This document shows positions 20,656 through 63,300 of a stretch of DNA of 64,000 nt, in pieces. The DNA is from Sphaerolaimus hirsutus (taxonomy: Eukaryota; Nematoda; Chromadorea; Monhysterida; Sphaerolaimidae), in NCBI GenBank assembly GCA_964036195.1, contig OZ038459.1, positions 8,615,206-8,679,205 of the forward strand, in the 5' to 3' direction. Each line of letters begins with the position of its first letter. Positions within the stretch are counted from its first letter, which is position 1. The position numbers and the translations under genes are program-made. Under the pieces are notes generated by a model. The model saw nothing but the letters and a program-made list of their open reading frames with translations, was not told the DNA's origin and ran no database searches.

Positions 20656-23600
20656 TCACCTGCTTCTTTTTTTGTCACTAGCCACAGCCACTTGCATCTC
20701 CCAGTCATAAGGCGGACAGTTTTGCGCTGCGGCTGCCAGTTGCTGCAGTATGCCGTCGTAGTCTGGCGTGTCCGCGTAGCCCAATTCTAACACCTCCATC
20801 CACATCTTGGTGACCAGCGCCACGGGCAGCCTGCCCACCAGGGGGCAGTCCCAGACCCTGTAAAATGCCTTGTAAAATGTCAAATGTTATGCAAAGTATC
20901 AAAAGTCATGAAAAGTACCTTGCAAAATGGCAAACGTACGTTTGCCTCTTTGGCCCCGCACACGCTAGTTGACATCCACACCAAATTGACATCGACACCA
21001 TCGACCCGATTCAAAGCTTGCTGACGAGCCGACAAACGACGTTCAAACGCAAGCTTTGAATTGGGAGCGGAACCAGTTCACATTTGGTGTCGATGTCAAC
21101 TAGCGTGTGTAGGGCCTTTCCAGGGCATTTTACATGACTTTTGACACTTTGCATGACATTTGACATTTTACAGGGCATTTACAGTGTCTGGGACAGGCAC
21201 CAGCACGTAGTTGGTGTCGCGTTTCATCTGCGCAACTTTGGCGTTCTCGCGCACACCGCGCCACGGCAGCGCACCTGCGTTTGTTCGCATTCCCGAGATG
21301 TGCTTTAACGTTGCCGTGCCAGTAAAAACGTCAGGTGGTAAAAACGTGTCGACCCAATTGGCGGCCCACACACTAGTTGACACACGTGTCCACTAGTGTG
21401 CGGGCCGCCATTAGTGATCCTTCAAGGAACACTCACCAGTAGTCATCTCCACGAGACTAAAGAAGGCGGCAGTGAGGTCGCAGGCGCGGCTCTGTTCCCT
21501 GCGGGCGTGCACTCGCAGCGACGCGTACCTGGCCGTGCCGCGGAAGCCCGCCCTGGCCCTCGGCTTGCGCACTTTGCACTTGTCCGCGTCGCCCAGCGTG
21601 CCCCTTACAAAGTGCCGCCGCACCAAACCGAAGTCCAGCAAGTACACTGTGTGGCGAGTTTCCTGCGCGGTTGCTGTGCAAGTTTAAAGTGTGCCGAGAC
21701 AGGTGTGAAATTTTTTTGACGGAAAACGGAAAAGTGAGCAATTCTGGCGGAAAAACGGAAAGGGAAAAAAGTTCTGCCGGAAAAATGGAAATGCAAAGAT
21801 AAAATTTTTTCAGCTGCCGGAAAATGCAAAGGAAGACATTTTTCAGCCGCCGAAAAACGGAAAGCGAAAAGGTAAAAAAATTTTCTGCGGAAAGACGGAA
21901 ACTGAAAACGGAAAGTTGACACCTCAGTGCCGAGTGAGGGAAGCGACCGTACCGTACCATTGTGATGCCCATGGCCAGGTTGGAGGGCTTGATGTCCCTG
22001 TGCAGGTAGCCGTGCGCGTGCACCGTGCGGATCGCCTCCACCAGCTGGTGCGTGATGCGCGCCGCCGTGGGCAGCGAGAAGCGCGCGTTGCTCGTCGACT
22101 TGCGCACGTCGGACATGTTCTCCGAGTACAGGTCCATTACGAACCAGTTCAAGTCGGCCGTGTTCCCGCTGCCGTACAGATTCGGTATCTGCGGATGCAT
22201 CCACGTGTGACTGAGCGGGTGAAAGTGCCAGCACAATGGATGTTAGGGTGTTTGCGCTGCGCTGCACTCACGTGCGGGTACTTTCCATTTTGCAGCACGT
22301 TGATGAGCACGTGCGCCTCCAGAGCCATGCGGTAGCTGTGCCTCGCGTCGACCCTAACGCCACTTCCAGACATGTATAATGCTCTGTGAAATGTCAAATG
22401 TCATGCAGCGTCAAAGGTGACGTAAAATTCCCTGCAAAATGGCCACTCGGTTGCTCGGTAAAAAGGCGAACGTACGTTTGCCATTTTCCATGACTCTTGA
22501 CACTTTGCATGACATTTGACACTTGACATTTGACAGGGCATTTTACATGTCTGGGAGTGGCACCTGGGCGCCACCTTGACGGCGACGGCGGGGCAGCCGG
22601 GCCTGGCTGTGTCTTGTGCCCTGTGGATCTCGCCGAAGCCGCCCGCGCCCACTTTGCCCACGATGCGCCACCGCCCGCGCAGCTGCACATTTGCAATTAC
22701 GCGTTATTTCCCCTAAACGGGGCGGGTGGAACAAGCACAGCTCTACTGCCATCCATACGATGCGACAGGTCGCTTTCCGGTATTGAATAACAAGGGTACA
22801 AAAAAGTACCCACACCGTTTCTGACTCGTCGATTTTTATATGAAAGTTCGTTTTTTTGGCGCCATGGAAAACGTTTTCCGCTTTCCCGCGTTTTTTCAGA
22901 TGCAGAAAACATGCTGTACAAAACATCTCGGGACAATAGAAGTCCAAAGTTTCTACAATAGCTATAAATACTCCGCTGACCGCACGCTATCGATTTTACT
23001 GAAGGAAACACTCCTTCATGACAACATCGTCATAAATTAAAATGTTCCAAAAAAAGAAAAACACGTTTCAGGAGAAAACCTTCGTCGCTTATACGTGGCT
23101 CCGCTTAAACTCCCCTCTCTTAAAAAACACCCCCTGCTGGTTTTTTGATGTTCACCCACAATGTGTATTTGAATGATTTGGATGCTAATGAACACGAATT
23201 ATAGCATGAATATGAATAAAATACCATGTTTTTGTTGTCGTTGAATTACATTAATTCATGAAATACATTAATTACACGAGTTGACGGAATGCATTCGTAC
23301 AATGAATAAAGTGCAAGTTCTGCGGAAAAAAATACACCCCCCCCCTGAATAACACCGCCCCTCAATAACTCCCCCTCCGAAACCTCTGACGAAATAATAA
23401 CTCCCCTGGGGCCAGATTTAATACTCCCTACAGATTTGTAGGGTAGGGCGTACGCCCGACAGATTCTTTAAAGTTTAGCCGCATCGACGCACATGCACCG
23501 AGAGCAAGGCGGTTCGTAAAATACACGAAACCATCCTTTAAGGTTGCCGATATTGCAATATGACGTATATCACTTCGATTTTGGCCCGGAAATCACGATT

Positions 23601-24231
23601 TCGTCATTTCTTGGCCGTCTGCCAATTCGTTTTTTATTTTATTTTGTCGGGCGGGTTACTCGCATAAGTCGCGCTTTTGTGTAGTCAGGTGGTTACTTTT
23701 TTAGTGTTCACTGTCTGCAACCGAAACCATGAGGGCAGCGACAAGAAAGAAATGCATGCACGAGCGTACAAAAGCGCGACTTATGCGAGTAACCCGCCCG
23801 ACAAAATAAAATAAAAAACGAATTGGCAGACGGCCAAGAAATGACGAAATCGTGATTTCCGGGCCAAAATCGAAGCGGTATACGTCATATTGCAATATCG
23901 GCGACCTTAAGGGATAGTTTCGTGTATTTTACGAACCGCCTTGCTCTCGGTGCATGTGCTTCGATGCGGCTACACTTTAAAAAATCTATCGGGCGTACGC
24001 CTTACCCTACAAATCTGTAGGGAGTATTAAATCTGGCCCCTGGGGTCTTATCCGAGAATATACGATAATTACTTTTCAAGACTCTTCACATTAGTCTTGT
24101 TATTTCGCAGGTCAAAGGAGTTTTACCAGGTCGCCGGGCTGGAGCAGCCACGCGTGCCGCTTCGAGCTGACGTTGCGCGTCACCAGCGGCACATCGTGCG
24201 GCCGGCCCACCTGCAGCTGCAACCCGTCGCC
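20656..24231 (-). CDS. Tau-tubulin kinase-like (CK1-family) Ser/Thr protein kinase
   Basis: Exons on the minus strand, 5' to 3': 24231-24127, 22682-22564, 22353-22272, 22188-21958, 21662-21437, 21274-21201, 20838-20656. All junction phases agree except the last (see the intron 20839-21200). The product shows the whole kinase core: glycine loop GAGGFGEI, VAVKV lysine, catalytic loop HRDIKPSN, DFG, and GFRGTARYAS, which is the TTBK/CK1 form of the activation segment. It then has LPWRGV and PDYDGIL near the end, and stops about 20 residues after the kinase fold, so there is no long C-terminal tail as in vertebrate TTBKs. All residues needed for catalysis are present. The segment before the glycine loop (RHAWLLQPGDL) fits a TTBK N-terminus. 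Further 5' coding sequence up to about 25.5 kb appears split by two transposons, so the start codon is unresolved. Two introns are introner elements. Confidence 0.85.
20839..21200 (-). mobile_element. Introner element forming the last kinase intron (CTG target, nested insertion)
   Basis: On the kinase strand the exon reads ...TACGTGCTG, then element start GTGCCTGTCCCAGACACTG, and the element ends GGTCTGGGACTGCCCC, followed by CTG and the resumed coding frame GTGGGCAGGCTG. Coding frame and TTBK homology continue exactly if the element plus one CTG is removed. The flanking 3-bp repeat is CTG (plus strand CAG at 20839-20841 and 21201-21203). The 3' end is therefore CTG, not CAG, and no canonical AG lies in the right phase. 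Another fold-back element (about 20952-21116) is inserted into its centre. Confidence 0.85.
20952..21116. mobile_element. Palindromic CACACTAGTTGAC-family element nested in introner
   Basis: Begins GGCCCCGCACACGCTAGTTGAC and ends GTCAACTAGCGTGTGTAGGGCC. The arms are inverted repeats (GACATCGACACC / GGTGTCGATGTC) around a shorter core with AAGCTTGC/GCAAGCTT. The surrounding introner sequence is continuous on either side, showing this insertion came later. Confidence 0.8.
21362..21411. mobile_element. Minimal CACACTAGTTGAC-family palindrome in kinase intron 21275-21436
   Basis: A 50-bp near-palindrome, GGCCCACACACTAGTTGACAC to GTGTCCACTAGTGTGCGGGCC. It consists of little more than the two ends of the family seen at 20952, 39451, 51752 and 55326. 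Confidence 0.7.
21700..21934. mobile_element. GTGTCAA/TTCCG-array element in kinase intron 21663-21957
   Basis: The interior consists of tandem CGGAAAA(C)GGAAA...TTTTTTC units, the complement of the TTTCCGTTTTCCGG arrays at 28003 and 56459. The right end GTTGACACCTC resembles the TTGACACCCTA terminus of that family. The ends are decayed. Confidence 0.65.
22354..22563 (-). mobile_element. Introner element forming a kinase intron (210 bp)
   Basis: On the kinase strand: exon ...GTGGCGCCCAG, then GTGCCACTCCCAGACATG..., ending CATGTCTGGAAGTGGCGTTAG, then exon GGTCGACGCGAGG. The join gives VKVAPRVDARHSY with no frame change. The body contains the family words TGTCAAATGTCATGCAAAGTGTC and the central hairpin. 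The right-hand AG is from TAG, a one-base variant of the CAG on the left. Confidence 0.88.
22700..23095. repeat. Dispersed repeat shared with 55430-55690
   Basis: The segment with CTGAAGGAAACACTCC and the following A-rich stretch recurs (diverged) at about 55465. It lies in the large kinase intron between 22682 and 24127. No exon was recognised. Confidence 0.5.
23412..24036. mobile_element. Foldback element with long terminal inverted repeats and 9-bp duplication
   Basis: The two arms (about 280 bp each, from CCAGATTTAATACTCCCTAC inward) are nearly perfect inverted repeats around a core of about 60-80 bp. Flanked by the exact 9-bp repeat CCCCTGGGG (23403-23411 and 24037-24045). A 9-bp duplication with long terminal inverted repeats is typical of Mutator-like elements. 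It is inserted inside a CTCGAATAA-type element whose remains flank it (about 23095-23411 and 24046-24066). Confidence 0.85.
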
Positions 24232-24241
24232 CTGGCGGTTA

Positions 24242-24677
24242 AGCCGGAATTACAGCTCAGCGGCGTTTGACGTGAAATGATGACGTTGTAAAATTGATTA
24301 CATCAAAATAGACATAGGTACAGCGTTGAAATTTCGGAATTTGATAGTTCTAGTAATTGTGTGTAATGTCCTAAAAAAAATTAAGAAAATAATTATTATT
24401 TAATAAGTTATTAATTTTATGTAAAAATTTACACATTCTACGTTCACGTACAACATTTCACGTCAAACATTTTACGTCACCAAAAAATTCTGACGTTAAA
24501 TTAATAACTACTTACATAATGATTATTTGGTAAATTTTTTTTGGGACATTACACACAATTACTAGAACTATCTAATTCTGAAATTTCAATGCTGTATTTA
24601 CCTTTGTCTATTTTGATGTAATCAATTTTACAACGTCATCATTTCACGTCAAACGCCGCTGAGCTGTAATTCCGGCT
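24242..24677. mobile_element. MITE with TTA duplication next to the kinase exon
   Basis: Inverted ends AGCCGGAATTACAGCTCAGC / GCTGAGCTGTAATTCCGGCT extend over at least 70 bp. Flanked by TTA at 24239-24241 and 24678-24680. A TWA target is characteristic of PIF/Harbinger. It lies 10 bases upstream (kinase sense) of the exon at 24231. Confidence 0.8.
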
Positions 24678-24680
24678 TTA

Positions 24681-25600
24681 TCGCAGATCGGGTCACGTAC
24701 GACTAACGATGGCAAACCCTCCACAAATAGAGTATTTAAAATTTTAAGTATTTTTTCTAAAATGACTTTTCGAATTTTCGAATTTTTCCCTGAAACAGTT
24801 TTCAAATTTTTGAATTTAGTTTTTGAATTTTTGAATTTTTTGTTAGTTTTCAAATTTTTTTGTTAGTTTTCAAATTTTTTGGGTAGTTTTCAAATTTTTT
24901 TGGGTAGTTTTTGAATTTTTTGAAAAAAAATTGTATTTAAAACTTTAAATGCAGTATTTGGGTAGTCATCATGTTCATATAACTTTTTAAACCTTATTTT
25001 GACAATTTTGTAGCATTTACATCAATTAAAGCCTTGTTTCATTCACTCATCGATACAAGCACAGGGAAAGGCAATGAACCAAAACATATTCAAAACCAAT
25101 GCCAATCTACACAACTTATCTGTAGTGACTGCACACACTTTACAATGCACTCGAATCATAAACTCGTTTCTAGAGACTTGCAACTTAACATTTTTAAATT
25201 TTTATTACAGCTCAGACACACCGCAAGTCAATTGTCAATTGATTAAGAATGTTGAATTTAAGAATACATATCAATGCCTTGAATTCCCTAAAAAAAATCG
25301 AAAAGTCTTTTTGAATCTTTTGAAGAAAAAATATCGATTTTTATGTATTTTTTTCACCACGTGCTCAAAAATTCGAGAAGTCCAAAAAAATTCGAAAATT
25401 CGAAAAGGTTTTCGAATTTTCGAATCTTTTTTTGCCATCGTTACGTATGACAAATTGGCCCGCGTCCAAGTTATCGGTTGTGTATTGTACTATTTTATTG
25501 AAAGCGCTCAAAGTGCTTAAAATCGCGAAGATCAGCTCCATTTTGCTCATTTTCTCCTGCATAATCGATAATCTCATCGATATTGCTTTATACATGGTTA
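24681..25600 (-). pseudogene. Transposon-split 5' coding segment of the kinase gene (probable)
   Basis: On the minus strand the bases just upstream of the kinase exon at 24231 read on as coding if two insertions are mentally excised: the MITE 24242-24677 and the hAT-like element 24704-25443. The flanking pieces then join in one frame: NLDAGQF (about 25452-25475), VVRDPICD (24680-24703), and RQGDGLQLQ leading into the first kinase exon. A possible ATG-proximal hydrophobic start (MELIFAILSTLSAF) lies near 25540. The MITE puts an in-frame stop after PICD, so the segment is either dead or bypassed by splicing or a downstream start. The acceptor before GDGLQLQ (CCGCCAG) sits only 4-10 bases from the MITE end. 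This is inference from frame continuity and target-site duplications, without transcript support. Confidence 0.45.
24704..25443. mobile_element. hAT-like element with TAACGATGGCAAA ends
   Basis: Ends TAACGATGGCAAA and TTTGCCATCGTTA; interior rich in TTCGAATTTTTGAA words. Flanking 8-bp repeat CGTACGAC (24696-24703) and CGTATGAC (25444-25451), one mismatch. It splits a stretch of kinase-strand coding sequence. Confidence 0.75.
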
Positions 25601-26602
25601 TATACCCTATTTTGGGTCTAGGTATTTTATTTACAGCGATTTCGAAATAATCCTTGGACAGCTGTTTCTAGCCAACTGCCAATTTGTCATACGTTGTCAT
25701 AATGTTATCACGGCAAAAAGTGATTGTACTATTGTGTCACCTTGTCACCTGTTTGCTGTATTGATTCTCTCCCCCGTGCGCCGCATCCACCATCGCTCGA
25801 TGGACCAGTAGATTAGCTGTTACTTTTTTACAAGCAGTGATGGAATGACTTCTTGGCGCTACTTTTCTGCCGCGCCGCTGGCAGCGAGCCAGATAAGTCA
25901 GGGTAAATTTGTGATTTCTTTCTGCAACGCGGACGCAATTCCCTTGTTTTTTCGAACGTGTCTTTACATTTTACATTTTTAATTAATGTGTAATTAGATA
26001 CCTATTTATCTCTAACGCACAAAAAATACACACAATACACACAAAAAATCGTCTTTCCATCACTACACGACCAAAAAATTTCGATGCTTTTTAGAGTGAT
26101 GACCCAGCGTCCTGGGTGTCATCTATAAAACCGGATTGACGGATACTGACATAATGAAAACCGTCGCCCGCTTGCGGCATCACTGTGGCTTGTGTGCAGT
26201 GCAGTGGTTATCATCACCGCAATTCAGAATGTAACCACGAGATTCACCGCACAGACAGGTGATGTTCCGGATTGTTCTCACTTATTACCAGTTTTGGGTA
26301 TGTTTTGGCCCATTCGTCACTACGATCCTTCACGAAATTTTCTGACGAAATAATGAAACCCCCGCTTGAATAAGCCCTCTTCGAATTAACCCCCCCCCCA
26401 TTCAAAATTTGTTGGCGAAATAATTCACCTCCTGGGGGTATTTCGAGGTAATATGGTAGCTGGTATAAACCCTGTTCTAACGTTACACAGTCATTGTTTT
26501 TTTGAAATGTTTAAAAACACGTTAAACACACGTCTTCTGTATTGCCCTGATCACAAACCGCAGCTTTTGCTATGTGTGTTCTCTTTACACTCAATTTGAG
26601 GG
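25601..26602. other. Intergenic, no gene seen
   Basis: Contains a possible hAT-like fold-back at about 25836-26066 with CAGTGATGGAATG / CCATCACTA ends, and a decayed TACCGTA-type element at about 26330-26460. No exon with splice context was recognised. Confidence 0.45.
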
Positions 26603-26610
26603 GTATTTAG

Positions 26611-27399: not shown

Positions 27400-27490
27400 G
27401 TATTTAGAGGGGGGTTTAAATATTCATACTGGCCATTTTCAGGGGGGATTTCGAGGAAATACGGTACGTTTTAGCCGCAGTGCGCCACAA

Positions 27491-27901: not shown

Positions 27902-28002
27902 GGTAAATGGCATCACCGCCATGGAGCCTACACACTAAATTTTGGCAACAATATCACCACAAGTAGGTAAAACAGGTTTTTCTTCAATTATTCAGCCTCC
28001 GT

Positions 28003-35413: not shown

Positions 35414-37692
35414 CAGGGTTTGCAAAATTTCAGGAGAGAAAAAAAGAAATAAAATGGAAATAAAATGGAAAATTTAAGAATCAATAAAATAAGATGGAAA
35501 ACTTCAAAATAACAATAAAAATTGTATCAAAATTCCAATTTTTGTAATTTTTTGTAAAATTGTATAAAAATTTGTATTTTTGTAAAATTCTATAAAAATT
35601 TGTATCTTTTGTAAAATTTTTTTTTTTGCTTGAGTTTCTACCTGTTTATTCACGGAAATGGGGCAGTCCTAAGCCCTGTAGTGTGAAATGTCATGTAAAA
35701 TGTCATGCAAAGTGTCACTTGTCATGACGAATGTAAAGTAAACTGTCAATTGTCAAGCAAATTGTAACCAAGTTTTATGTTTTGTATCTTGTGTGAACAT
35801 TTGAATACAAAAACATAAGATTTGATTTGGATACGAAACATAAGATTTGGATACAAAAAAAGATTTTGATGCACAATTTACATATTGAATGACATTTGTC
35901 AAGACAATTGACACTTTGCTTCACATTTGACATGACACTTGGCATTTTATATGACAATTGACACTTTACTTAATTTGACATGACACTTGACATTTTGCAT
36001 GACAATTGACAATTTACTTCACATTAGTACTGACAATTGACACTTTACATAACATTTTACAAGTGCACCCAGAACACTACAGTAGTCCTTCTACTGAAAA
36101 TGCAAATTATTGTAATCAATAATTGTAACTTCAGACTTGCAACTACCATATTATTAGCCCCCCCCCCCTGATATACCCCCACCAAATTGAATGTAAACAG
36201 AACGTACATGACAAAAGCTACTGTTTGTGATCCGGACGATGCAGAACAGGCATTAAAAACAATGACTGTGTTACGTTAGAACCTGTTTTACACCATCTAC
36301 ATAAATACTTATGTAAATTTATATACTCTCATACATGCGCTTTTTGTTGCATTTTTGGACGTCAGTGTACGTTACAAACAACATTTTAGTACTGGTCAGT
36401 GTACGTTACTTTTAGACTTCAAAAACGTTCTGACGAAAAAATTTGCCCCCCCCTCGAAATAACCCCTCGTTTACTGCCCCTCAAAATTCTCACTCTGAAA
36501 AAAATCACCGCCAGGGGGTATTTCAAGGAAATACGTTAGCTAAGAATACCTACTGCATGCACCTTTTTGCACCTGTAATGCAGAAGTTTGTCACTTCATC
36601 TGTTTTTCATGTTTTCAAGTCTAATGATAACAATTTTCTGGCCTTGCGTGCCAGATTCTGATTTTTTTGTAAAAAATTTTGTACAATTTTTGCAAATTTT
36701 CTTGTAAAATGGTGTGATTTTTTTTATTGATGACTTTTAGGAATAAAATAAAATGAAACAAGAATAAAATTGGAAAAAAATACATGTTTATACAATTTTT
36801 ATACAATTTGTATACCAATAATTTTTATAAAACCAACCCTGACTAGTGATGGAATGGCGCCATGGCGCTGGCGGCATTTGAGGGCGCCAAAGGGCGCCGC
36901 GCCATGGCGCCCTTGGCGCTTGGCGCCCTTGGCGCATGGCGCCTTGCCCTAAAAGGGCACCAAAATGGCGCCAGCAGGGATTCAATGCGAGCGCAGCATA
37001 AATGAAAAAAATGGTGTCCGTGGAATCAGGTGTCTCCAAGATTTTGGCCCTCGCGGGGGCTGGATACATAGCGAATCGCTCCTCCGGAGGGATAGATAGC
37101 TGAAAAATCTGAAAACATCTGACGAATCAGAAGCTGAGAATGATGAACCGTCGAACTTGCAACTTCGTAAATCAATGACTACAAATCGTCATAATTCCGT
37201 TTTAGTTCACTTCAAGAAAAGATCCATTGGAAAATCTATTTGAAGTCGATGGATCGTTTTGTCAAATGACAATTTTCATTGTGTTTGAATCGAATGTCAT
37301 GTGTGAGCATTATTTTGTGCAAAAAACCTTGTTTCTAGTCCCTTTTGTGTTTATTTTATCCTGGAGAATGTAGATAAAGAAGTGATTGTGTGCACTACAG
37401 TGTTGGATAATCATTTTTTGGCACACACAGCGTATTGTACACACTTATTTATCTTGGCGCATTTGGCGCCTGGCGCCCTGATTTTCAAATGGCGCCATGG
37501 CGCCCTTAGCGCTTGGCGCCCTCTTTCCGTGGCGCCCTTGGCGCCTGGCGCCTGCTTTCTGAATGGCGCCATGGCGCCCTTGGCGCCTGGCGCCCTTTTT
37601 CTGTGGCGCCGTCGGCGCTTGGCGCCCAGTTTCTGAATGGCGCCATGGCGCCTGGCGCCCTTTTTTCTGGCGCTTTTCCATCACTGACCCTG
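35414..37692. mobile_element. hAT-like CAGGGTT element interrupted by a GGCGC hAT-like element
   Basis: Starts CAGGGTTTGCAAAATTTCAG and ends AAAACCAACCCTG at 36841; duplicated ending at 37692 because of the nested insertion. The 8-bp flanks AACCGAAC (35406-35413) and ACCCGAAC (37693-37700) match at 7 of 8 once the nested element is discounted. It contains a fold-back (about 35667-36065), a TACCGTA-type element (36150-36537) and ATAAAATGGAAA tracts. Diverged copy at 50378-51385. Confidence 0.75.
36844..37686. mobile_element. hAT-like TAGTGATGG element with GGCGC arrays
   Basis: Ends TAGTGATGGAATGGCGCC and GGCGCTTTTCCATCACTG; exact 8-bp duplication ACCCTGAC (36836-36843, 37687-37694), which includes the last bases of the host CAGGGTT element. 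Sub-terminal GCGCCATGGCGCCCTTGGCGC arrays on both sides. Confidence 0.88.
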
Positions 37693-37757
37693 ACCCGAAC
37701 CATGCAGACACGCATACCTAATTGAACCTAATTATTGGAAAACGTTATTGTAAAATA

Positions 37758-43453: not shown

Positions 43454-44168
43454 GGGCCAGTTCCGCAAGTAGACAAGTTAAGAGTTAAAAGTTAAGAGTT
43501 GAGTTAAAGGTTAAAAGTTTAGTCAAAAGTTGAGTTAAAAGTTAAGAGTTGAGTTAAAGGTTAAAAGTTGAGTCAAAAGTTGAGTTAAATGTTAAGAGTT
43601 GAGTTAAAGGTTAAAAGTTGAGTCAAAAGTTGAGTTAAATGTTAAGAGTTGAGTGAAAGGTTAAAAGTTGAGTCAAAAGTTGAGTTAAATGTTAAGAGTT
43701 GAGTTAAAGGTTAAAAGTTCAGTTAAAAGTTGATTTAAAAGACAAATGGGTCATTCGTTGCAGAAGCGCGATACGCTGATCTTCAATCATATTTTGTCCC
43801 CGCATGGCCATTCTGAAACAACGTTCCGCGATTTTTTTTTTAGCGATAATTTTTTTGGATACGTTATTTTCAAATGTCGTGCATACAACATTGGCAGCAT
43901 GCCAGCGAACAGCCGTATCAATACCAATTACACATTTTTATTTTTTTACCATCATTTTCCACTTGTCTCTTAACTCTCAACTCTTAACTCAACTCTTAAC
44001 TCAACTTTTAACCTTTAACTCAACTCTTAACATTTAACTCAACTTTTAACTCAACTCTTAAATTTTAACTTTTCTCTTAAACTTTAACTTTACTCTTAAC
44101 TCGCCATTTGTCATTTTACTCAACTCTTAACTTTTAACTCTTAACTTGTCCACTTGCGGAACCGGCAC
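43454..44168. mobile_element. GGCCAGTTCCGCAAGT-family fold-back element with CAG duplication
   Basis: Left end GGGCCAGTTCCGCAAGTAG, right end CTTGCGGAACCGGCAC; CAG on each side (43451-43453, 44169-44171). Arms of tandem GAGTTAAAAGTTAAGAGTT / complementary words. The ends and 3-bp CAG duplication match the introners although the body is different. Confidence 0.85.
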
Positions 44169-44519: not shown

Positions 44520-46729
44520 CAGAGTTGTTAAAAGTACCGAACGTTTTTCAAAGTATGCGTATGCGAAAAGTAGTTTGTTTTTACTAACCCCTTGAGTACA
44601 GAAAGAGTAATTTGTTTACTTTTATTCGCGAGTAAATGAGAGTTAAATAAAGGCAGAAAGCGAAAGGCTTTTTCCCAGAAGACGCAAAGGCAAATATTTT
44701 TCTCGTGAAAGCGTAAAAGTGGGTAAAATTAATTTTTCTTTCTGGAAAATGTAAAAGGGAGCATTATCAATGTTTACCCTGGACGACAAAAAGGTGATTT
44801 CTTTATGAAAAACAGGGGTCTCTTATGGAGCGATTACAGCTCGGGCGTAAAATTCCAGCGTAAAATTCAATCGCAAAATTGATTACATAAAAGTTGATGA
44901 TGATACAGGTCTGCAATTTTTCATGGAGAATACCGTATTTCTTCGATCTTATTGACGTGTTCGATTACATTGGCTTGCTCGAATACTTTGGCGGGTCTAA
45001 AGAGCATCTGAAAAATACATTGCCGTGCTCGAATACATTGCCGTATGAACAAAATTGACGTTGCATGATCTGATGCATGTCTTGATGTTTGCCGCCATAC
45101 ATCTGCACATCGTCTGTTTGTTTGTCATGTTTTGCTTTTGCTATCTACCAGAGTTGCGAAAGCGTATTTACGCTTACCCGAAATACCCGGGTAAATGGGT
45201 ATTTATACTTACACTTACGCTTACGCTTTCACCAAATACCCTTACGCTTTTTTACGCTTTCCCGGCCAAAATACCCGGGTACCAAAAGCGTAAAAAAGCT
45301 TTTCACACGGTTCAGTTTTACACTTTTGAAAAAGCATAAAACCACAAAAAAGAGTGAACGAAACTGCGTACCAAAAAATTACTGCGTGCGTGCAGTGGTG
45401 CTGGAAATAGTGGCATATTTACAAATTGTGTCGCAGTATGAATGTCTTGCTAATACTGTGTCGTCGAGCAAAATCGTGGCTTCAGATAAGAAATTTTGGG
45501 CTGAAAATGGATTCCGACGACGATGTTGTCGCCGTCGACAGCAGTAACTCCAAGTTGAAAGATACAAAGATGACTTACCGTGTTTCTTCTAATAGAACGG
45601 CAGCCTCCAATAGAACGGCACCTCCCATAGAACGGCAGGCAAATAAAGTTGACAAAAAAATTGAACGGTGCTCTTCTATTAGAAGAAATACGGTAAGTGT
45701 CGCTGCCGATGAATTGCCAAACAACATATGAGGGCAGACTACTACGTGGACATCCGAAAAATGCCGCTGAGAGCTTGATTTGGAAAGAATTAACTGAGAA
45801 AACATCTCTTAAAAAATTTTTACGCTTACGCTTTCATTTACGCTTTCCCAGGTATTTTAAAAATACCTTACGCTTTCAGTATCCATACTGAAAATTTGGA
45901 AAGTGTATTTACGCTTACGCTTACGCTTTCCAAAAATACCGGTATTTTAACAACTCTGCTATCTACTCATACGGTATTGTGCAGCGTATGTCACGAATTT
46001 ACAATGATTTGCACTTACGTCACTAAATGCACTTAAATGATGAATACGATCTGAAAAATATATTGCCGTGCTCGAATACATTGCTGTGCTCGATTACATT
46101 GACCCCCCAAAACCGCTTGTGAAACAATACATTGGCGGTCAATATGATCGAAGAAATACGGTATGTTTATCAATACCTTCATTGTGCCCGAGCGTCATCA
46201 TCCACAGTCACTGCAATTTGATTGTGGAAATTCAAAAATTTCTATTTTACGCTGGAATTTTACGCCAGCTGAAGAAAAATCAATTCTACGCTATGTCATT
46301 GCATGCAATCACCTGGCGTAGAATTGACTTTTCTTCAGCGGGCGTAAAATTCCAGCGTAAAATAGAATTTTTTGAATCTCCACAATCAAATTGCAGTGAC
46401 TGTGGATGATGACTCTCGGACACAATGAAGGTATTGATAAACATATTCTCCATGAAAAATTGCACACCTGTATCATCATCCACTTTTATGTAATCAATTT
46501 TGCGATGGAATTTTACGCTGGAATTTTACGCCCGAGCTGTAATCGTAGCATTATGGCAAAAATACTCTTTCTGTACTCGGAAGAATTACTGTACTGTACT
46601 CGAGTACTCTCAAAAAGTAAGCATACAGTCGAGTACAGATACTTTTATCAAAGTATGCGTATGCGTATTTACACAGTAATCGAGTATGCGTACTTTTAGA
46701 GTAAAAGTAAATGCGCATTAACAACTGTG
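44520..46729. mobile_element. Nested hAT-like complex
   Basis: Outer ends CAGAGTTGTTAAAAGTACCG and TTAACAACTGTG; flanks TTCGGGTG and TTCTGGGG agree at 6 of 8. Inside lies an inverted-repeat element from about 44831 to 46543 (ACAGCTCGGGCGTAAAATTCC and complement). Inside that are a TACCGTA-type pair (44935 / 46160), a further hAT-like copy (45149-45958) with a TACCGTA-type piece in it (about 45577-45692), and a hairpin at 46190-46410. Confidence 0.65.
45149..45958. mobile_element. hAT-like element, CAGAGTTG family (inverted)
   Basis: Exact 8-bp duplication CTATCTAC (45141-45148, 45959-45966). Ends CAGAGTTGCGAAAGCGTA and GGTATTTTAACAACTCTG; same family as 26611, 32811 and 53028. Confidence 0.9.
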
Positions 46730-48331: not shown

Positions 48332-51300
48332 ATGGGCGACGCGGACACGCAAACACCAATAGAAGATGGGGCGGGCGCGAGCAACCGCCGACCGCGGAAG
48401 GGGCACATCAGGTGCCAGTCCCAGACCCTGTAAAATGCCCTGTAAAATGTCAACTGTCACGCAAAGTGTCAAAAGTCATTTAAAATGCCCGTTTGGCATT
48501 TTATCGGGCATTTTACATGACTTTTGAAACTTTGCATGACATTTTACATTTTACAGGGCATTTTACAGGGTCTGGGACTGCCCCCAGCTACGCGGACAAC
48601 GTGGTCGAGCAGCTCATCGACACCGACAGCTACGCGTCCAGCGAGGCCACCAAGAAAGGTGGGTCGTTGGTTTGGTGTTTTGGCAGTGTGAGGTGTACGT
48701 TTTTGACCCGTGGAGAGAACTTTGAGGGGCTTCAGTCGACGTCAAGTTACATTCGTATAACTTGGCGCAGGATAAATCGGATAACTGTGGTTATTTACAT
48801 GTGTGTCAAACTGTGGTTACATTTTAAGTATTTGTGCAAAGCATGTATGTATTAAGGTATGGTCAGCACGTAATCTTTACAGGTGTTTATGTATACATTG
48901 TATTGTAATGTTTATGCAAACATTTATGAAATTGTTTCGCTGCTTTTCTGTAATGGATTGACAGTTCAGCAACAGTAATCTAGTGTAATTGTAATTAACA
49001 GACAATGCACGTATGGTTTGTCCGTTAATTACAATTACACAAGATTGCCGGTGCTTAACTGCTAACACCATTCCAAAAAACGGCGGTACCATTTCAAAAA
49101 GTTTTATTTTGCTTCTGACATTATACTGGAAACTAATTACATTCACATTCAGTCTATCCCTAAACTGGTCGTTGATAAATTCATTCGAAATCGGTTATCA
49201 ATGTGTATCACTCAGTTGAGTAATACAATACTCGATCAGTACTCATTCAGTTGCGTATACCGTCCGAACAAACCCAGTTTTGATAGGCTGTACATTGATG
49301 GAAAAGTGTTGGAACGCTCTATGGACATCAGTAGCAAACCTTACAATAATCTAATGAGGTATTATCAACTCATCCAGGAAATTAGCGTTTCATTCCAGGC
49401 TAAAATTTTATTTGACTGTTTTGTGAGTTGATCAATAATTCCGGTGAAATCTCAAAATTCCATGGTCCAAATTTCCGCGACTTTCCTAAATATGTATCTA
49501 CTGTGATGTGAGGCAAATAGGTAAACATTTCCATTTCGTTTTTTTCCGAAATGTAGGGTTTACAACATCTACTTGTCACACTTTTCCGTCTCCGTTGAAC
49601 TGACCACTATCAAATACATTCACAATATCAATAGAAACGAATATTTACTACGGTCAAAACGAGTGGATTACTTGCCGATCATGATTTTACAAAGCGACTT
49701 TCTCAAAACACCTCAACATTGGTTGCTACAACGAAAGGCGCTAAAAATGATATTAATAAATATTTTCAAGCTATTTGAATCGAATGCTAGCTACATTTTG
49801 AACGAAGTCCACTGATTTGAGCGAAATTTTATGCCACTTTCACTTCACTGCCGTCTAAATTCTGCTGCTGGTGATGTCTCAAATTTACAGTGCTGAAATG
49901 AGCGCAGCTGCAGCTGCAAATTATGCTGCCTCAAGCGAACTGAGTAAAAACCTTGATCAACATGATATTTACCGATCTTGGAAGACCCTGTCGCAACTTT
50001 ATAATGAAATTGGTACGCTTTTCGATTCACAAAAAGCATTATTACCACGGCTTAAATTCGGTTACATGTGAATCATCTGTCTGGTGGAAAGTGGTGTGAT
50101 GGTGGGAATACATTTCTCCAGGGCCGAAATTCCTACGTTTGAAGATAGATATAAGTAGGTATTTAACCTTACTGTCTTTTGTCAAATTTACCTTAGGTTT
50201 TTGCCATTGAGCAAGTGACTGAACGTTCTGGGTTTTTTCAGCATTGTCAATTGCATGAAAAACACATATAATTATGTATTTGGAACGTTTACCAATGTGA
50301 TTAAACTGTTTAAACAGTCACAACGTAACGGCAGACGAAAAGCTTTATAAATGGCTATTTATTTACATATTCACTTGCAGGGTTATCAAAATCTCAGAAA
50401 AGAATAACAATAAAATAAAAATAAAATGGAAAATTGAAGAATACAATAAAATAAAATAAAATGGAAAATTTCACAATAAAAATAAAAACTGTATAAAAAT
50501 TCGAATTTTTGTAAAATTTTTGTAAAATTGTATACAAATTCATATTTTTGTAAAAATTATATAAAAATTCATATTTTTTGTAAAAAAATTTCAATTCATA
50601 TTTGTTTATAGTTCAACCTGTTCATTCGCGGAGCTGGGGCAGTCCCAAGCCATGTAAAGTTTCAAAATGTCATATGAAATGAAATGGAAAGTGTCAATTT
50701 TCATGAAAATGTTAAGTAAAGTGTAAATTGTCATGACAAATATAAATTAAAGTGGAAACTGTAAAGCAAATTGTATCTAAATCTTATCTTTTGTATCCAA
50801 ATCTTGTTGTTTTTGTAACCAAATCTTATGTGAACATTTGGATACAAAAACATAAGACTTGGATACCAAAATATAAGGTTTGGATACCAAAACATAAGAT
50901 TCAGATACACAATTTACACTCTGCATGACATTTGTCATGACAATTATACTTTGCTTGACATTTGAGATGCCAATTGACTCTTTACTACATTTGTCATGAC
51001 AAGTGACACTTTGCATGATGTTTTACAAATGCGCCCAGCACACTCCAGTAATCCTTCTACTGAAAATGCAAACCATTCTTATCGATAATTGTAACTTAAC
51101 ACTTGCAACTAGCTAACAATACCTACTGCATGCAACTTTTGCAAAGTAATGGAAAAATTTGTCACACGTTTTTCATGTTTAGGTCTAATTATCACATTTT
51201 TCTGACCTTGCATGCAAGATTCTGATTTTTTAGAAAATTTCTGTTAAATTTTTGTAAAATGGTCCATATTATTATTTTATTATTATTTTGGAATAAAATA

Positions 51301-54300: not shown

Positions 54301-57300
54301 ATAGATACTCTGAAAAACTCAAAGCAGAATAGGAAATGTATGAATGGAGACTGATCAAACGTACTTGTGCTGTGCGTAAGCTTGGTATATTCACCTCAGC
54401 GACTTTACACCTCGCACGCATGGTTTACGCTGGAAGCATGCCAACGATATACAAATCATGTGATTTCTATAAAAACAGGAAAAATTGTTTCCTTTATGTA
54501 GAGGAACTTTTTATAAATAGAAAAATAAAGGTGCTTTTTTGCTAACGTAGGTATTCACAACAATTTTTTTCACCATTTTTATGAAAATCGCATGCTTTAA
54601 TCATCATTGGCACGGTTCGAACGCGAGACACAAATAACTACCGTATTTCCTCGAAATACCCCCCGGGGGGTGATTGTTTCATAGTGCTCCCGAGGGGGGG
54701 GGGGTTAAACGAGGGGGGGGGTATTTCGAGGGGTGGGGGTATTATTTCACAGGAAATTTTTTGAAATCCTAGTACAAAATCGTGGTTTGTGATGTGCGCT
54801 GGGGTAGAAAAATGCATCAATAACTGACATGTATCAACTCCTGTATACTAATATTAGTACGCAGATGGTATAAACACTGTTTTAACGTGATTCCAACATT
54901 GTTTTCACGTGTGTTCTACACTACGCAGAACACAAACTGCAGTATTTGTCATCTACGTTCTCTTTACACTCAATCTGGGGGGGGTGTTTCGAGGGGGGGT
55001 GATTGTTGCATGGTGGTCTCGAGAGAGGGGGTCAAACGAGGGGGGGTATTTCGAGGGGGGGGGTATTTTGAGGAAATACGGTAGGTATGCGCGCAAAGTG
55101 TGATGTGACTGAAGTAGGTACCTATACACGTGGTCACGAATGTCACGCAGGACACCAACTTCCTGTTCATGGGCGGGCTGATCATGGCGCTGGCGGTGGA
55201 AGAGTCGAACCTGCACACGCGCATCGCCCTGCGCGTCCTCCTGCTGGTGGGCGCAGAGCCGCGCTGGCTGCTCGCCGGCTTCATGGCTGTCACCGCCTTC
55301 CTGTCAGTGCGGCGCATGGGGGCCACGCACACTAGTTGACATTGTGAAAGATGTCAACTAAAAAACAAAGAACAATTTGAAGCATCACACTTCACAGGAA
55401 CAACGAAAATTAAGTGTCGCGATATAAATTTAAGTATACTCGACGGACCGCGTGCTATGCATTTTTCTGAAGGAAACACTCCATCATGACGTCATCATTA
55501 ATGAAAAAAAATAATTGCAGCAAAAAAAAGAAAAAACATGACGGGAAAAGCATTCCTCGTTTGTACGCGACTCCGCCTTTTTCTTTTTTTAAATATTTTT
55601 CTTTTTGTGAAAGTGTATACAGGTATATAGTGTATCCAGCTCGCGAGTTATCCACCAAGACATAAAAAAATTTTGGGCGCATACTTTGCGGTCCGCCGAG
55701 TATATGCTCTAAATGTCACAAAGTAAAGTTAAAATCACACAATTAACCAAAATTTAGTTGACACGAATTTTTATGTCAACTAGTTTGCGCGGGCCCACAC
55801 AAACAGTTAGCGGTGCAACCGCAACATACAATCGAGTGACCCAACCGCGCGCAGGAGCATGTGGATCAGCAACACCGCCACCACCGCCATGATGGTGCCC
55901 ATAGCGCTCGCAGTGCTGGAGAACCTCAGATTGGCGCAGTCGCGCGGCGCAGAGTCGGATGAGGAGAACAGCGACGCGGACACGGCCACCAAGAACTCGG
56001 ACACGCCTAGGATCGAAGTGTCCAGCGTACAGAAGACAAGCTCGCCCAGGTGCCAGTCCCAGACCCTGTAAAATGCTCTGTCAAATGTAAAATGTCACGC
56101 TAAGTGTCAGAGGTCATGTAAAATGCCCTGCAAAATGGCAACTCGGTTGCCATTTTGCAGGAAATTTTACATGACTTTTGCCACTTTGCATGACATTTTA
56201 CAGGGTCCGGGACTGCCCCCAGACGCAGCGGCAAACAGGGGCACTTCAGTCGTACAGCCGACGAACTGCAGGCACCGCCGCACCGATCCAGGCAGATGAG
56301 CCGTATCGAGCAGGACTACGAAGCTAATATCACGTGAGTTACATTCAACTGGAAAGGCGCGCCACACAAAGCACTTGAAAACAGTCATAACTAGAAGTCG
56401 AAAGTCACAACTAGAAGTGCATTCGAACGTTTTTAGTTGTGAAAAAGAAGGCCACCATTAGGGTGTCAACTTTCCGTTTCCGTTTTCCGTTTCCGCAGGA
56501 AAATTTTTTACCTTTCCGTTTTCCGTTTTCCGGCAGCCAAAAATTTTTTACCTTTCCGTTTTCCGTTTTCCGGCAGCTGACAAATTTTTACCTTTCCGTT
56601 TTCCGTTTTCCGGCAGCTGAAATTTTTTTACCTTTCCGTTTCCGTTTTTCCGGCCCATTTTTCCATTTTCCGGCTGAAAAATTTTTACCTTTCCGTTTCC
56701 GTTTTACCAGCCCATTTTTCCATTTTCTGGCTTGATTTTCAGTTTTCTGATATTTTTCCATTGTTTTTCCAATCTGTATTTATCTTCAATTGGCTCATCC
56801 CATTGTGTTGTTTTTGTCTCTTGGAGCAGCATTGACAACTGGGATTTCAGGGTCAGTGAAACAGGTGCTGTGAACCCAATTGAGTCATATGCTGACACCA
56901 ATAATTGTTTCAAGTTTCGTCTGGTTGGTGTTGTGATGCTGTCAATTTGCAATTTTGGTGTTGATATTGCCAGCATGTCCGTTCGGTGATTTTATTTCAT
57001 GCCCATTACTGCGACAATTTTATTCACCTTTGGACTCCTGTCGTTTTCTGCTATTTCATTCATGACTGATCTGGAGTTTGACAGCCATTCCCTCATGTTC
57101 ATAGAACATTGGTTAAATAAAGCTTTGACTTTGTAATATAGTTCTAAAGCTTCAACTTCATTCGTGACACTCATGATGAAGTTATCGACGTAAATGTTGT
57201 TTATTATCATCACCAACTGGTTTCGTTCCCCTTCATTTTCTTCATATTCATTCATGTTGTTTATTGTCACATTTAAATGGTATTTTATGACTGCTCCCAA

Positions 57301-60300
57301 AATTGCTGGGCTGCAGACAAGTCCAAACAGTACGTGTTTAAAACGAAGTACTATTAAGTTATTTTCAGTTACTGGTTTTGAGTAGGGTGTCAAATTTCCG
57401 TTTCTGTTTTCCGTTTCCGCCTTTCCGCAGGAAAATTTTTTACCTTTCCGTTTTCCGTTTTCCGGCAGCCGAAAAAATTTTACCTTTCCGTTTTCCGTTT
57501 TCCGGCAGCCGAAAAATTTTTACCTTTCCGTTTTCCGTTTTCCGGCAGCTGAAAATTTTTTACCTTTCCGTTTCCGTTTTTCCGGCCCATTTTTCCGTTT
57601 TCCGGCTGAAAAATTTTTACCTTTCCGTTTCCGTTTTACCAGGCCATTTTTCAATTCTCTGGCTCGATTTTCAGTTTTCTGGCATTTTTCCATTGTTTTT
57701 TCAATCTGTATTTATCTTCAATGGGCTCATCCCATTGTGTTGTTTTTGTCTCTTGGAGCAGCATTGACAACTGGGATTTCAGGGTCTGAAACAGGTGCTG
57801 TGAACCCAATTGAGTCATATGCTGACACCAATAATTTATTCAAGTTTCGTCTGGTTGGTGTTGTGATGCTGTCAATTTGCAATTTTGGTGTTGATATTGC
57901 CAGCATGTCCATTCGGTGATTTTATTGCATGCCCATTACTGCAACAATTTTATTCACCTTTGGACTCCTGTGGTTTTCTGCTATTTCATTCATGACTGAT
58001 CTGGAGTTTGACAGCCATTCCCTCATGTTCATAGAACATTGGTTGAATAAAGCTTTGACTTTGTAATATAGTTCTAAAGCTTCAACTTCATTCGTGACAC
58101 TCATGATGAAGTTATCGACGTAAATGTTGTTTATTATCATCGCCAACTGGTTTCGTTCCCCTTCATTTTCTTCATATTCATTCATGTTGTTTATTGTCAC
58201 ATTTAAATGGTATTTTATGACTGCTCCCAAAATTGCTGGGCTGCAGACAAGTCCAAACAGTACGCGTTAATAATGAAGTACTATTAAGTTATTTTCAGTT
58301 ACTGGTTTTGAGGCATCTTTCAGTCAGAAAAATCATGTGTAGTCTCTAGCTTGGTCATGCAATCCTATTTGCAAAAATGCCTTTTCATTATCGGCAATTA
58401 ATGCTAGATTGCCTGCCCTGAACCTCAGGAGTAGGCCCAGTGCTATTGGTGTTCTAATTGGTCCTCTAAAAAGGCACTCATTGAAACTGGGCTTACCTGC
58501 CGACCCATTGTACATGATTCTGCATGATGTTGATTTGCCCGGCATGATTACTGGCTGGTGTGGCAGGTAATGAATCCCCTTGTTGTCTGTTTTGTCGTCA
58601 CAGATCTCAATTATTCCCTTTTCTAGTTGGTCGTCCAAAACTTTCCGGTATTGTTCGAATAAGTTTGGATCTTTGTTGAATCTTCTTATCAGTGATTTAA
58701 ACCACACCAAGGCTTCTGCTTTTCCCGTGGGCAGGTCACTGATACTCTCTTTATACGAGCAGTCAATATAGTATTGTTTGTTGTTGTTGTTGAATTTTAT
58801 GCTATTTATTATCATCTCCTCTGCAATGTTGTCATCAATTGCATAGGGGTCATCAGTGATTCCCACTGCTTCTAGACTGTGAAATTGTCATAGTGTTTCC
58901 TTTCCTATGGCCACTATGGCTACTTTTTGATGATTTTTTGTTGGTTCAGTTAAGCTTGAACTACAAGTGATCTTACAGGCATGATCCATAGTTGCAGAAT
59001 GTACAGCTACCACAATCAAAGCCAAACAGGCAAACCTGCATGCAGGTTTTCCTTCTGCAAATGTGTCTATTAGCGTGCTCATTTCACTTTATTTTTTTCC
59101 GTTTCTGTGAAAATTTTGCTTTCCGTTTTCCGTTTTCCGGCATTTCATTTTTCCGTTTTCCGTTTTCCGGCCGACAATTTTTTTTTACCTTTCCGTTTTC
59201 CGTTTTCCGCTGAGTGAAATTTTTTTACCTTTCCGTTTTCCGTTTTCCGGTAGAAATTTTTTTTTTACCTTTCCGTTTTCCGTTTTCCGTAAAGTGAAAA
59301 AAATTTACCTTTCCGTTTTCCGTTTTCCGTAAAAAAATTTTTTTGACACCCTAGTTTTGAGGCATCTTTCAGCCAGAAAAATCATGTGCAGTCTCTAGCT
59401 TGGTCATGCAATCCTATTTGCAAAAATGCCTTTTCAATATTGGCAATTAATGCTAGATTGCCTGCCCTGAACCTCAGAAGTAGGCCCAGTGCTAATGGTG
59501 TTGTAATTTGTCCTCTAAAAAGGCACTCATTGAAACTGGGCTTACCTGCCGACCCATCGTACACGATTCTGCATGATGTCGATTTGCCCGGTGTGATTAC
59601 TGGCTGGTGTGGCAGGTAATGAATCCCCTTGTTATCTGTTTTGTTGTCACAGATCTCAATTATTCCCTTTTCTAGTTGGTCGTCCAAAACTTTCCGGTAT
59701 TGTTCAAATAAGTTTGGATCTTTGTTGAATCTTCTTATCAGTGATTTAAACCGCACCAAGGCTTCTGCTTTTCCTGTGGGCAGGTCACTGATACTCTCTT
59801 TATATGGCCAGTCAATATAGTATCGTTTGTTGTTGTCATTGAATTTTATGCTATTTATTATCATCTCCTCTGCAATGTTGTCATCAATTGCATAGGGGTC
59901 ATCAGTGATTCCCACTGCTTCTAGACTGTGAAATTGTCATAGTGTTTCCTTTCCTATGGCCACTATGGCTACTTTTTGATGATTTTTTGTTGGTTCAGTT
60001 AAGCTTGAACTACAAGTGAAGTTACAGGCATGATCCATAGTTGCAGAATGTACAGCTACCACAATCAAAGCCAAACAGGCAAACCTGCATGCAGGTTTTC
60101 CTTCTGCAAATTTGTCTATTACCGTGCTAATTTCACTTTATTTTTTTTCTGTTTCCGTGAAAATTTTGCTTTCCGTTTTCCGGCATTTCATTTTTCCGTT
60201 TTCCGTTTTCCGGCCGACAATTTTTTTTTACCTTTCCGTTTTCCGTTTTCCGCTGAGTGAAATTTTTTTACCTTTCCGTTTTCCGTTTTCCGGCAGAATT

Positions 60301-63300
60301 TTTTTTTTTACCTTTCCGTTTTCCGTAAAGTGAAAAAATTTTACCTTTCCGTTTTCCATTTTCCGTAAAAAAAAATTTTTGACACCCTAGCCACCATACA
60401 GATCTTTGAAACGTTCGAACGATTTGTTTTCCGATTTTTTTTGGTTATGGGTGATGACTTCCGACTTTTCACTCCGACTTCCGATTTTTGTGCTGCATGT
60501 GGAGCACCAAAAATGCTTGGAAAAATGGATGCCAACTTTCAAAATAGGTATTCATGTGCAGATCAATATGGATCACGGATTATATTATATCGTTGGGAGA
60601 ACATTCACATGCGCTAGTTTCGACCGATTTTGCTAGACTAGCGTCTAATCTGAGCTGGTTCTCTTCAGTAACAAGCAGCTCAGTCAACTTAGACAGTTAG
60701 CTTATAACGACATAAATTAAATCCAAAACTAAACATGAACAATATAGGTAGATAGCCAGCATGATGAGCCACTTATTTTAACAATAAATTTTGCATGAAT
60801 ATTTATGCAAAATAACTGCTAGTGTTTGGTGATATGTAAAAAAGAGCAATACTTTGGGCCAGCCGCTGCCCGTAAAACGAAATGTAAAATGCGAAACGTC
60901 ATGAAAAATGCAAAAAATACTTTGTTAAAGTTATCTCACATTTTACCAGGATAATTATAGTTAACTTGAAAGCTAACCAGTAAAAATATATTGCATGGCA
61001 TTTTTCAGCATGTGAGTGCTGGTGCTCTCCTTGATCCAGGGGGCACTCCCAGACCCTGTAACAGAGTTGTTAGAATTACTGAACTTTTTTAAAAGTATAT
61101 GTAAACGTAAAGTATTTTTTTTTTACTCACCACAAAGTATAGAAAACGTTTTTTTTACTCGTACGTACGCGTAAATGTGGGTACTTTTCTGTTAGTGTAG
61201 TTACTTTATAAATATGTCCCACATTGAATTTTCATAAATACATTTTCCGTACGCGTACGCTTTGAAAGTGTACGCGTACAAGTGCGTACGGTATTTTTTT
61301 GAAAAGTATATGTAAATGTATTTACCGCGTACTCGCGTACGCGTATTTTTCGAGTAAACGTACATACCTTTTAACAACTCTGCCCTGTAAACAGCCCTGT
61401 AAAATATAAAATGTCATGCAAAGTGTCAAAAGTCATGTAAAATGCCCTGCAAAATGGCAAACGTACGTACAGGGCATTTTAAAGGGCCTGGGACTGGCAC
61501 CAGCACTTCCCACTCAAAAACACGCCGCCCACGCACGCAGATCTGCCTACGGCCTAGACGCAGCAGTGGCTCACCGGAGCGAGTCGCTTCAGGTCACCGA
61601 AGCGGACATCCGCGCCGAGATGGACACGGACGGCGTCAAGGTCAAGGCGGCCGTGCGCCACCACAGCATGGTCATGAACGAGGAGCAGGTGCCAGTGCCG
61701 CAAAAGGGGTAGTGAACAACTGTTTGAGAAGTGAGAAGTGGAATGGGAAGAGAATTGAGAAGTGAAATGAGAAGTGAAATGAAAAGTAAATTTTTATGAA
61801 AATTACACAAAAACTTTTATTTTGATTAAAATTTCCTATTTTATTCTATCCAGCAAAAAAATTTAAATGCTTGATTTGAAAGCATTATTATTTGATTTTT
61901 TTTGCATTTTCTTGTCACTTTATTGCCACTTTTGAAAATTGTTACCTTTCACTTCTCAATTCACTTTTCAGTCCCCATTTCACTTCTCACTTCTCAAGTG
62001 GTTTTTGACTTCTCCTTTGGCGGCACTGGCCCCAGGTGCGCCTCATGCTCGAGGACCAGCAGCACACGGCGCTAGTCAAGTGCGTACTGCTGTCCATCTG
62101 CTACGCGGCAAATCTTGGCGGCACTGGAACTCTCACTGGCACCGGGCCAAATTTGGTGTTTAGGGGACAGTTGGACGCGTGAGTTCATTTGATGGGTGGA
62201 TGAGGTGATGGGGTTGGTACACTAAATAATGAACAGTACAGTACGAAGACAAGCGCGAACATTTGAACACAGCGTATTTCCTCGAAATACCCCCAAGGGT
62301 TTATTATTTCGCCAGCAATAAATATTTGAGGGTGTTAATTCGAGGGGGTGTTATTTCGTCAGAAATATCACACATTTATCGGTGCAAAGACACTTGGCTA
62401 ATTTGGAATAAATTATGGGATCGGAATAAAGGAAACGTTATCGGGACAAAGATTGCGCCTTAAAATGTTTCGGGATCGGGTTTGGTTTTGAGATTTTGGG
62501 ATCAGGGACGGGGTTTCGGGATCGAGACTGATAAATCCCGGTATTTTTCAGGATTCGGTGCCGGGATCCCGTTTGAACCCTGAATGCGAGTAAACTATCG
62601 CCTACCCTTCCAGCCTGTACCCCGGCAAAGACACGGGCATCAGCTTCGCGTCGTGGATGCCGCTGGCCATCCCGCCCATGCTGCTGTGCCTGGTGCTCGC
62701 CTGGTTCTGGCTGCAGCTCGCCTGTCTGGTGCCAGTCCCAGACCCTGTAAAATGTAAAATGTCATGCAGTGTCAAAAGTCATGGAAAATGCCCTGCAAAA
62801 TAGCAACCGAGTTGCTATTTTGCAGGGCATTTCCATGAAATTTGACACATTGCATGACATTTGACATCTTACACGGCTTTTACAGGATCTGGGAGTGCCC
62901 CCAGGGCGTCAAGCGCACGTTCAGCTGCCAAAGGAAGCCGCTGCACGTGCGCAATGCGGCAGAGTTCGCCCTGACTAGGAGATATGCGGCCTTGGGCAGG
63001 ATTAGGTGAGGTTTAAGTGCAGAGCACAATCAATCAGTTCAATCAAGCACAGAGGATTTGATGTGATTGGTATTATATGATAACAAAGTGTAACGCTATC
63101 GCAAGGAAGTAACCGATACCGATTTTTACCTAACTTTAAAGTGACGATATTTACCGCAAAGGTTCTTCTGTCCAATTTCACCATTGAAGTTTTCTATGAC
63201 TACTTTTCAATGCTATAACATTCCTATTCCAGAGGTTTACTATTTAGGATACGTAAGTTAATTTTTACTATTCCAAAACATTCCAGTAACATTTCAAGTG

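Follow-up and report, generated by a model that had tools for sequence, protein, structure and literature searches.

According to the survey of Gozashti et al. (2022), in the parts available to us, introners occur in only two groups among animals and land plants, both of them animals, and in the Chrysochromulina-type introner the 5′ splice site lies in the element and the 3′ one stems from the target duplicate (PMC9860276). NuwaI, of the PHIS superfamily, is marked by a 3-bp CWG duplication (W, A or T) and, in the accessible portion of the survey describing it, was found in animals only (PMC4482050). Here, we analyzed a 64,000-nucleotide stretch of contig OZ038459.1 of Sphaerolaimus hirsutus (hereafter, the window), in which six introns of a tau-tubulin-kinase-like (TTBK-like) gene and an SLC13 transporter gene coincide with elements of two kinds, a fold-back family, F1, and F2. 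F1 and F2 are very probably introners, i.e., short, non-autonomous, NuwaI-like DNA transposons of the PHIS superfamily that target CWG and become introns in exons. It is supported by duplicated target sites and by inverted repeats at the element termini, by an excess of copies in coding-like sequence, by a single orientation in homology-verified exons, and by in-frame stops within the elements.

With the 2022 introners, as far as the available text describes them, F1 has in common that introns are alike nearly to the splice borders, as well as inverted repeats, target duplication, and enrichment in genes; with the Chrysochromulina type, it shares that the element provides one splice site and the duplicate the other. 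It differs in its CWG duplication and in the many copies without AG (PMC9860276). Likeness to NuwaI extends to the 5′-CWG-3′ duplication, the animal host, and a GGG-type end on one side. The terminal inverted repeat of NuwaI usually starts with GGG; F1 has GGGGC at one end and GTGCC at the other. Unlike NuwaI in the portion consulted, F1 is non-autonomous, its other end reads GTG, and the loci examined yielded no F1-ended transposase (PMC4482050). The introner elements of the dinoflagellate Amoebophrya, in the accessible part of their description, resemble F1 in that their introns form hairpins, carry short direct repeats at the borders, and have borders that are non-canonical, whereas these borders are very variable and no CWG rule appears in that part (PMC7789003). 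Among animals, introns that depart from the GT/AG rule and have non-canonical 3′ ends are already known from Fritillaria, in which U2AF is duplicated; on the available portion of the report, it differs from the present case in being a tunicate and in having 95% of its introns affected (PMC13326754). In the titles and abstracts of the open literature, which we covered in part, there was no CWG-target introner and no introner in nematode-like or priapulid-like animals; the claim of the first-pass annotation that the family is undescribed is, on this partial search, likely.

F1 and F2 elements at exon joins

Five introns that the first-pass annotation had assigned to one element family indeed belong, end to end, to a single fold-back family, F1. 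Two of them lie in the TTBK-like gene (minus strand), in which Pfam recognizes a kinase and whose best solved relative is TTBK1. The intron at 22354-22563 has CAG on its 5′ side (22564-22566), TAG on its 3′ side (22354-22356), and ends in GTTAG, and its exons join within the kinase domain aligned to TTBK1. The one at 20839-21200 is flanked on either side by CTG (coding strand), ends in CCCCCTG at a border without AG, and would add 4 in-frame stops if kept, while the joined frame aligns to TTBK1. The other three are found in the SLC13 gene (plus strand; Na_sulph_symp by Pfam; aligned to SLC13A5/A2): 48412-48587 near the gene start (CAG/CAG), 56050-56222 (CAG/CAG), and 62729-62904 (5′ CTG, 3′ CAG), the last with a join aligned to SLC13A5/A2. 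The sixth intron, 61689-62035 of the same gene and strand (F2; CAG on both sides), has the body different from F1 and the common end layout that had been attributed to it; its ends are GTGCCAGTGCCGC...GCGGCACTGGCCC, and its join is aligned to SLC13A5.

After removal of each of the six introns, the exons join in frame, as had been stated, and element ends coincide with these joins, the introns being alike up to both borders as inferred from the joins. That every join falls into a conserved domain was too strong a statement: it holds for both kinase joins, for 61689-62035, and for 62729-62904 (inside the aligned domain, with a 2-residue gap relative to human SLC13A5), but the 48412-48587 join is in a short N-terminal peptide with no Pfam match, and the 56050-56222 join separates the two SLC13 halves that were matched, so neither is inside an aligned domain.

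Well-kept F1 copies begin with GTGCCAGTCCCAGACCCTG at one end and finish with CAGGGTCTGGGACTGCCCC at the other, with a body that folds back on itself (e.g., 48411-48491 with 48505-48585, 91% complementary). The ends are asymmetric, one starting with GTGCC and the other reading CCCC before the target duplicate. For the two F1 introns that were folded as RNA, hairpins of -114.9 kcal/mol (48412-48587; z -18) and -96 kcal/mol (56050-56222; z -16) were predicted. Furthermore, a second GT (CCT|GTAAAAT) lies in frame 18 nt inside the F1 consensus ends and may provide another donor.

Searching the window with a profile of the five reported F1 introns recovered these five together with seven further F1-like copies and a weak match at 60856-61013. 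The repeats of the earlier list are real, and seven F1-like copies had been left off it. None of these seven was placed inside an identified coding exon; overall, 5 of the 12 F1 copies are inside such exons, which make up approximately 5% of the window (P 2e-4).

Genome-wide copies, target duplication, and exon orientation

The first-pass annotation had proposed a search of the whole genome for the element ends, and in the assembly holding the window (348.5 Mb, 762 contigs) F1 proved abundant, far above reversed controls: the 12-mer core CAGTCCCAGACC occurs 5,824 times (18 for the reversed control), and exact CWG-flanked GT ends occur 1,572 times in 348 Mb (reversed control, 0). An F1 20-mer had no exact match in IMG/VR viral contigs. 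We retrieved 80 of the first 100 listed CWG-flanked copies, all of them within the initial 13 Mb of a single contig. The 3′ end was recognized in 75 of these 80, with CWG present there in 62, and 59 distinct two-sided copies comprised 26 CAG/CAG, 23 CTG/CTG, 8 CTG/CAG, and 2 CAG/CTG. The 3-bp CWG target-site duplication is therefore identical in 49 of 59 copies and differs at W in 10. As copies were selected by an exact 5′ end and a bonus for CWG, these proportions of duplicate types apply to well-kept copies. Together with its flanks, the target forms an approximate palindrome (C-CWG-G) and should therefore not itself set the orientation of insertion. Next to two sampled copies (L081 and L106), there are short tandem repeats whose translations are repeated peptides.

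We trained a codon score on the genes of the window (1,082 codons); it placed 28 of 71 F1 copies in coding-like context, compared to 87 of 1,600 CWG sites (Fisher 5e-16) and 7 of 70 CCWGG sites (Fisher 7e-5) of the window. Above a score of 5, the GT-first direction was found for 22 copies and the reverse for 6; above the stricter 10, the numbers were 14 and 2. Peptides joined across the insertion gave a junction-crossing Pfam match above the curated cut-off in 9 of 34 forward cases and 0 of 36 reverse cases (Fisher 8e-4), the nine corresponding to OSCP1 (L067, L068), PAN (L078), kinase (L100), a seven-transmembrane (7TM) receptor (L102), E1 dehydrogenase (L109), cyclin N (L110), permease (L111), and AMP-binding (L125). 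Matches below the cut-off were left out (forward, L069, L077, L083, L086, L106, and L127; reverse, L083, L111, L117, and L129). By codon score alone, L067, L111, and, weakly, L127 were assigned to the reverse strand, whereas Pfam favors forward (below the cut-off for L127); in view of this conflict, Pfam was weighted more. For OSCP1 (twice), E1 dehydrogenase, and the 7TM receptor, match lengths are equal on both sides with no net gap, and the alignment of ALKBH7 (L101) with the solved human protein runs through the junction without gaps. All 35 copies that were translated through (29 sampled copies treated as coding and 6 from the window) contain in-frame stops, 1 to 8 each. Thus, the elements must be removed if the genes work. 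Insertion into exons with the reading restored is supported by both the duplication and the conserved joins.

Based on these observations, a CWG transposase acting in trans would insert the element into an exon and duplicate the 3-bp CWG. The first two bases of the element (GT) would then act as the 5′ splice site, and the final bases of the exon would come from the target duplicate, which, in the form of CAG, would also contribute the AG of the 3′ splice site. Splicing would thus remove the element with one duplicate and restore the old mRNA. Since the reverse end begins with GG, a terminal donor would be available in one orientation only, which would explain the one-way bias in exons. With a CTG target, the border would lack AG, and either a later T-to-A change in the 3′ copy, nearby sites, or use of CTG as 3′ splice site at some rate may be involved. 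The resulting rule, with the donor from the element and the acceptor from the target duplicate, is simple and testable. By rough extrapolation (28 of 71 applied to the 1,572 strict copies), about 600 introns may have arisen from one CWG-target family.

While the introner reading, as proposed in the first-pass annotation for the window, is well supported genome-wide, one of the six introns has no AG at its border, and several points weigh against it. A large share of the insertions likewise has no AG at the sole border that restores the protein exactly, and that F1 and F2 are spliced out is something we infer from genomic sequence. Another triplet than CWG was present at 13 of 75 F1 3′ ends. 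Sampling required an exact CWG and a 16-base 5′ end, which favors young copies, covered no more than 13 Mb at the start of one contig, and used a 3′-end finder that favored CWG. The exons on which the codon score was trained and the control sites come from one and the same window, and of the 6 of 28 copies that scored in reverse, two (L067, L111) are contradicted by Pfam and the other four stand. Peptides for Pfam were our own selection (34 of 64 forward, 36 of 65 reverse), the frame was picked by eye in L067, L100, L111, and L122, as was the 3′ border (CACAG) of L100, and on the reverse strand of L117 a weak GDT1 match is located near the junction, albeit not across it. Finally, none of 42 loci with a DDE_Tnp_4 transposase match, 30 of which are just 3.6 kb long, contained the F1 core with up to 1 mismatch.

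CTG copies and competing explanations

CTG/CTG duplicates flank four of the nine junctions verified by Pfam (L067, L102, L109, L111), two others have 5′ CTG and 3′ CAG (L110, L125), and the remaining three belong to the CAG kind (L068, L078, and L100, whose 3′ side is irregular). AG is present at the 3′ border of CAG copies and absent at the restoring border of CTG/CTG copies. The latter were found in homology-verified exons in six cases, all of them forward (L067, L101, L102, L109, L111, and the kinase copy at 20839), and in each, GT...CTG at the border is the only exact restoration. Either GT...TG splicing, the use of other sites, or faulty alleles may account for such insertions. In-frame read-through was rejected, as L067, L101, L102, L109, and L111 each hold 3 in-frame stops. 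The insert lengths of these five are divisible by 3, and that of the kinase copy is not. The share of CTG copies represents a natural experiment on the strictness of the AG rule and on the maturation of new introns.

One reading, which we put forward tentatively and would not call probable, is that GT...CTG is spliced here, with TG tolerated as a 3′ splice site, so that insertion would be harmless at either W and a later T-to-A change would turn the border canonical. We consider it a serious possibility, though still short of an even chance, that working introns derive from CAG insertions and from CTG insertions whose 3′ copy has turned into CAG, the exonic CTG/CTG copies being recent faulty alleles on their way to loss. 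Consistent with the latter, exonic CTG/CTG copies have fewer 3′-end mismatches than the remaining CTG/CTG copies and so appear younger (one-sided P 0.034), a difference that exonic CAG/CAG copies do not show (P 0.23), and the cyclin and AMP-binding joins have 5′ CTG and 3′ CAG. Moreover, strict full-length counts (CAG..CAG, 96; CTG..CAG, 23; CAG..CTG, 15, or approximately 11 with look-alike duplicates merged) include an excess of CTG..CAG over CAG..CTG (P 0.13; 0.03 merged), a weak sign that AG-creating changes are favored. However, faulty alleles would not be required to lie forward as all six homology-verified copies do, and the reverse CTG/CTG candidates, L056 and L089, are candidates by codon score. 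Also against faulty alleles, an exon has stayed nearly unchanged after insertion and duplication in the receptor pair L102/L104, a duplicated exon with the same CTG/CTG insert: if its end is set at GTGAGT, the exon has 1 mismatch in 270 positions, a silent one, while the element has 12 mismatches in 168 aligned positions plus 28 gap columns (Fisher 7e-5 versus the exon). This constancy is the best indirect evidence that genes with CTG inserts work, with gene conversion limited to the exon as an alternative. Splicing of CTG copies by GT-AG pairs off the element borders, with a few residues gained or lost, appears unlikely. In-frame pairs do exist for ALKBH7 (L101; 1 residue lost), OSCP1 (L067; 6 replaced), and the kinase copy (7 added), and their presence in three of the six cases was counted as slightly lowering the odds of exact border splicing; yet L109 has no frame-restoring GT-AG pair within the range tried, the nearest in-frame pair in L102 and L111 adds 17 residues, and the conserved protein would be altered.

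Three further explanations concern the elements as a whole. That they are ordinary, unspliced miniature inverted-repeat transposable elements, and the genes pseudogenes or assembly artefacts, would fit the many copies outside coding sequence, but is hard to reconcile with the coding-like enrichment, the forward bias, and the conserved joins, and we regard it as very improbable. The same low probability is given to a non-spliceosomal, hairpin-based removal in need of no AG: both folded introns are nearly all one hairpin with the borders at its base, and the Amoebophrya hairpin introners have, in the accessible description, direct repeats and variable borders (PMC7789003), yet a symmetric hairpin would be indifferent to direction, and the verified exonic copies are GT-first. 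Least credible of all is copying of introns via RNA by reverse splicing, as proposed for fungal introners; here, the direction-specific presence in exons is opposed by CWG duplications and terminal inverted repeats, by copies outside genes, and by the similar numbers of CAG and CTG duplicates.

Transposase families and other features of the window

Autonomous NuwaI elements have a DDE transposase and a Myb/SANT protein; for F1, a search for DDE_Tnp_4 gave at least 163 matches, with 150 of 306 candidates scored. The first-pass annotation had considered the transposon active or recently active, which it may be; many F1 copies have near-consensus ends, but no F1-ended transposase was present among the loci examined. 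Two DDE_Tnp_4 families, each present in numerous nearly identical copies, were rejected as F1 mobilisers, as their ends are GGCCCC-type and not those of F1. One of them (L033 and relatives, L009-L038) is a Harbinger-type repeat, most copies of which are approximately 98% to 99% identical; it has TGGCCCCGCGCACACTAG inwards from one end, is variable in length on the other side, and, judged by this similarity, has probably been active recently. The second (L039 from position 2534 onwards, L040-L048) begins with TGGCCCCACACAAGCTGG and is likewise approximately 98% to 99% identical.

An inverted-repeat scan of the window, with rules taken from the first look (identical CAG or CTG flanks and a GT start on one strand), returned four elements, namely two F1 copies, F2 (61689-62032), and a 715-bp element with F2-like ends at 43454-44168 (minus strand). 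The last is flanked by CTG on both sides in element direction, lies in no identified exon, and its body gave no BLAST match to F2. As for the seven further F1-like copies, the one at 61040-61500 is in reverse to SLC13 (minus strand; CAG on the gene strand) and adjoins the exon starting at approximately 61504; the GT 18 nt inside its end is a possible in-frame donor. A second minus-strand copy, 10894-11118, has CAG/CAG and no identified exon. On the plus strand, profile matches include 16135-16292, apparently within an ordinary intron of a gene that resembles KAL1 and encodes WAP and fn3 domains; 63349-63541, within an ordinary SLC13 intron, with CTAG flanks and the end TTGCC; and two diverged relatives, 35660-36063 (end GGGGCAGTCC; no identified exon) and 50636-51028 (in an SLC13 intron). 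The seventh profile match, 1-169, is cut by the window edge.

The nearest relative of the window's SLC13 protein is from the nematode Plectus (45%), and nematodes at 37% to 38% are among the best matches of the kinase. On the mitochondrial contig, COX1 is readable with the invertebrate mitochondrial code and matches a metagenome protein at 90%; among the named records listed, which are mostly from insects, it matches at 66% to 70%, with the priapulid Halicryptus at 68%. Rfam gave no match in the window. A large inverted repeat spans 23397-24051 (284-nt arms, 95% complementary, 87 nt between them), and a hairpin with two 142-nt arms (94% complementary, no loop) is located at 46162-46445. Furthermore, repeats of the GGAAAACGGAAA type, alike in both places, are found at 21700-21960 (kinase) and 56450-56760 (SLC13), in each case within an ordinary intron.

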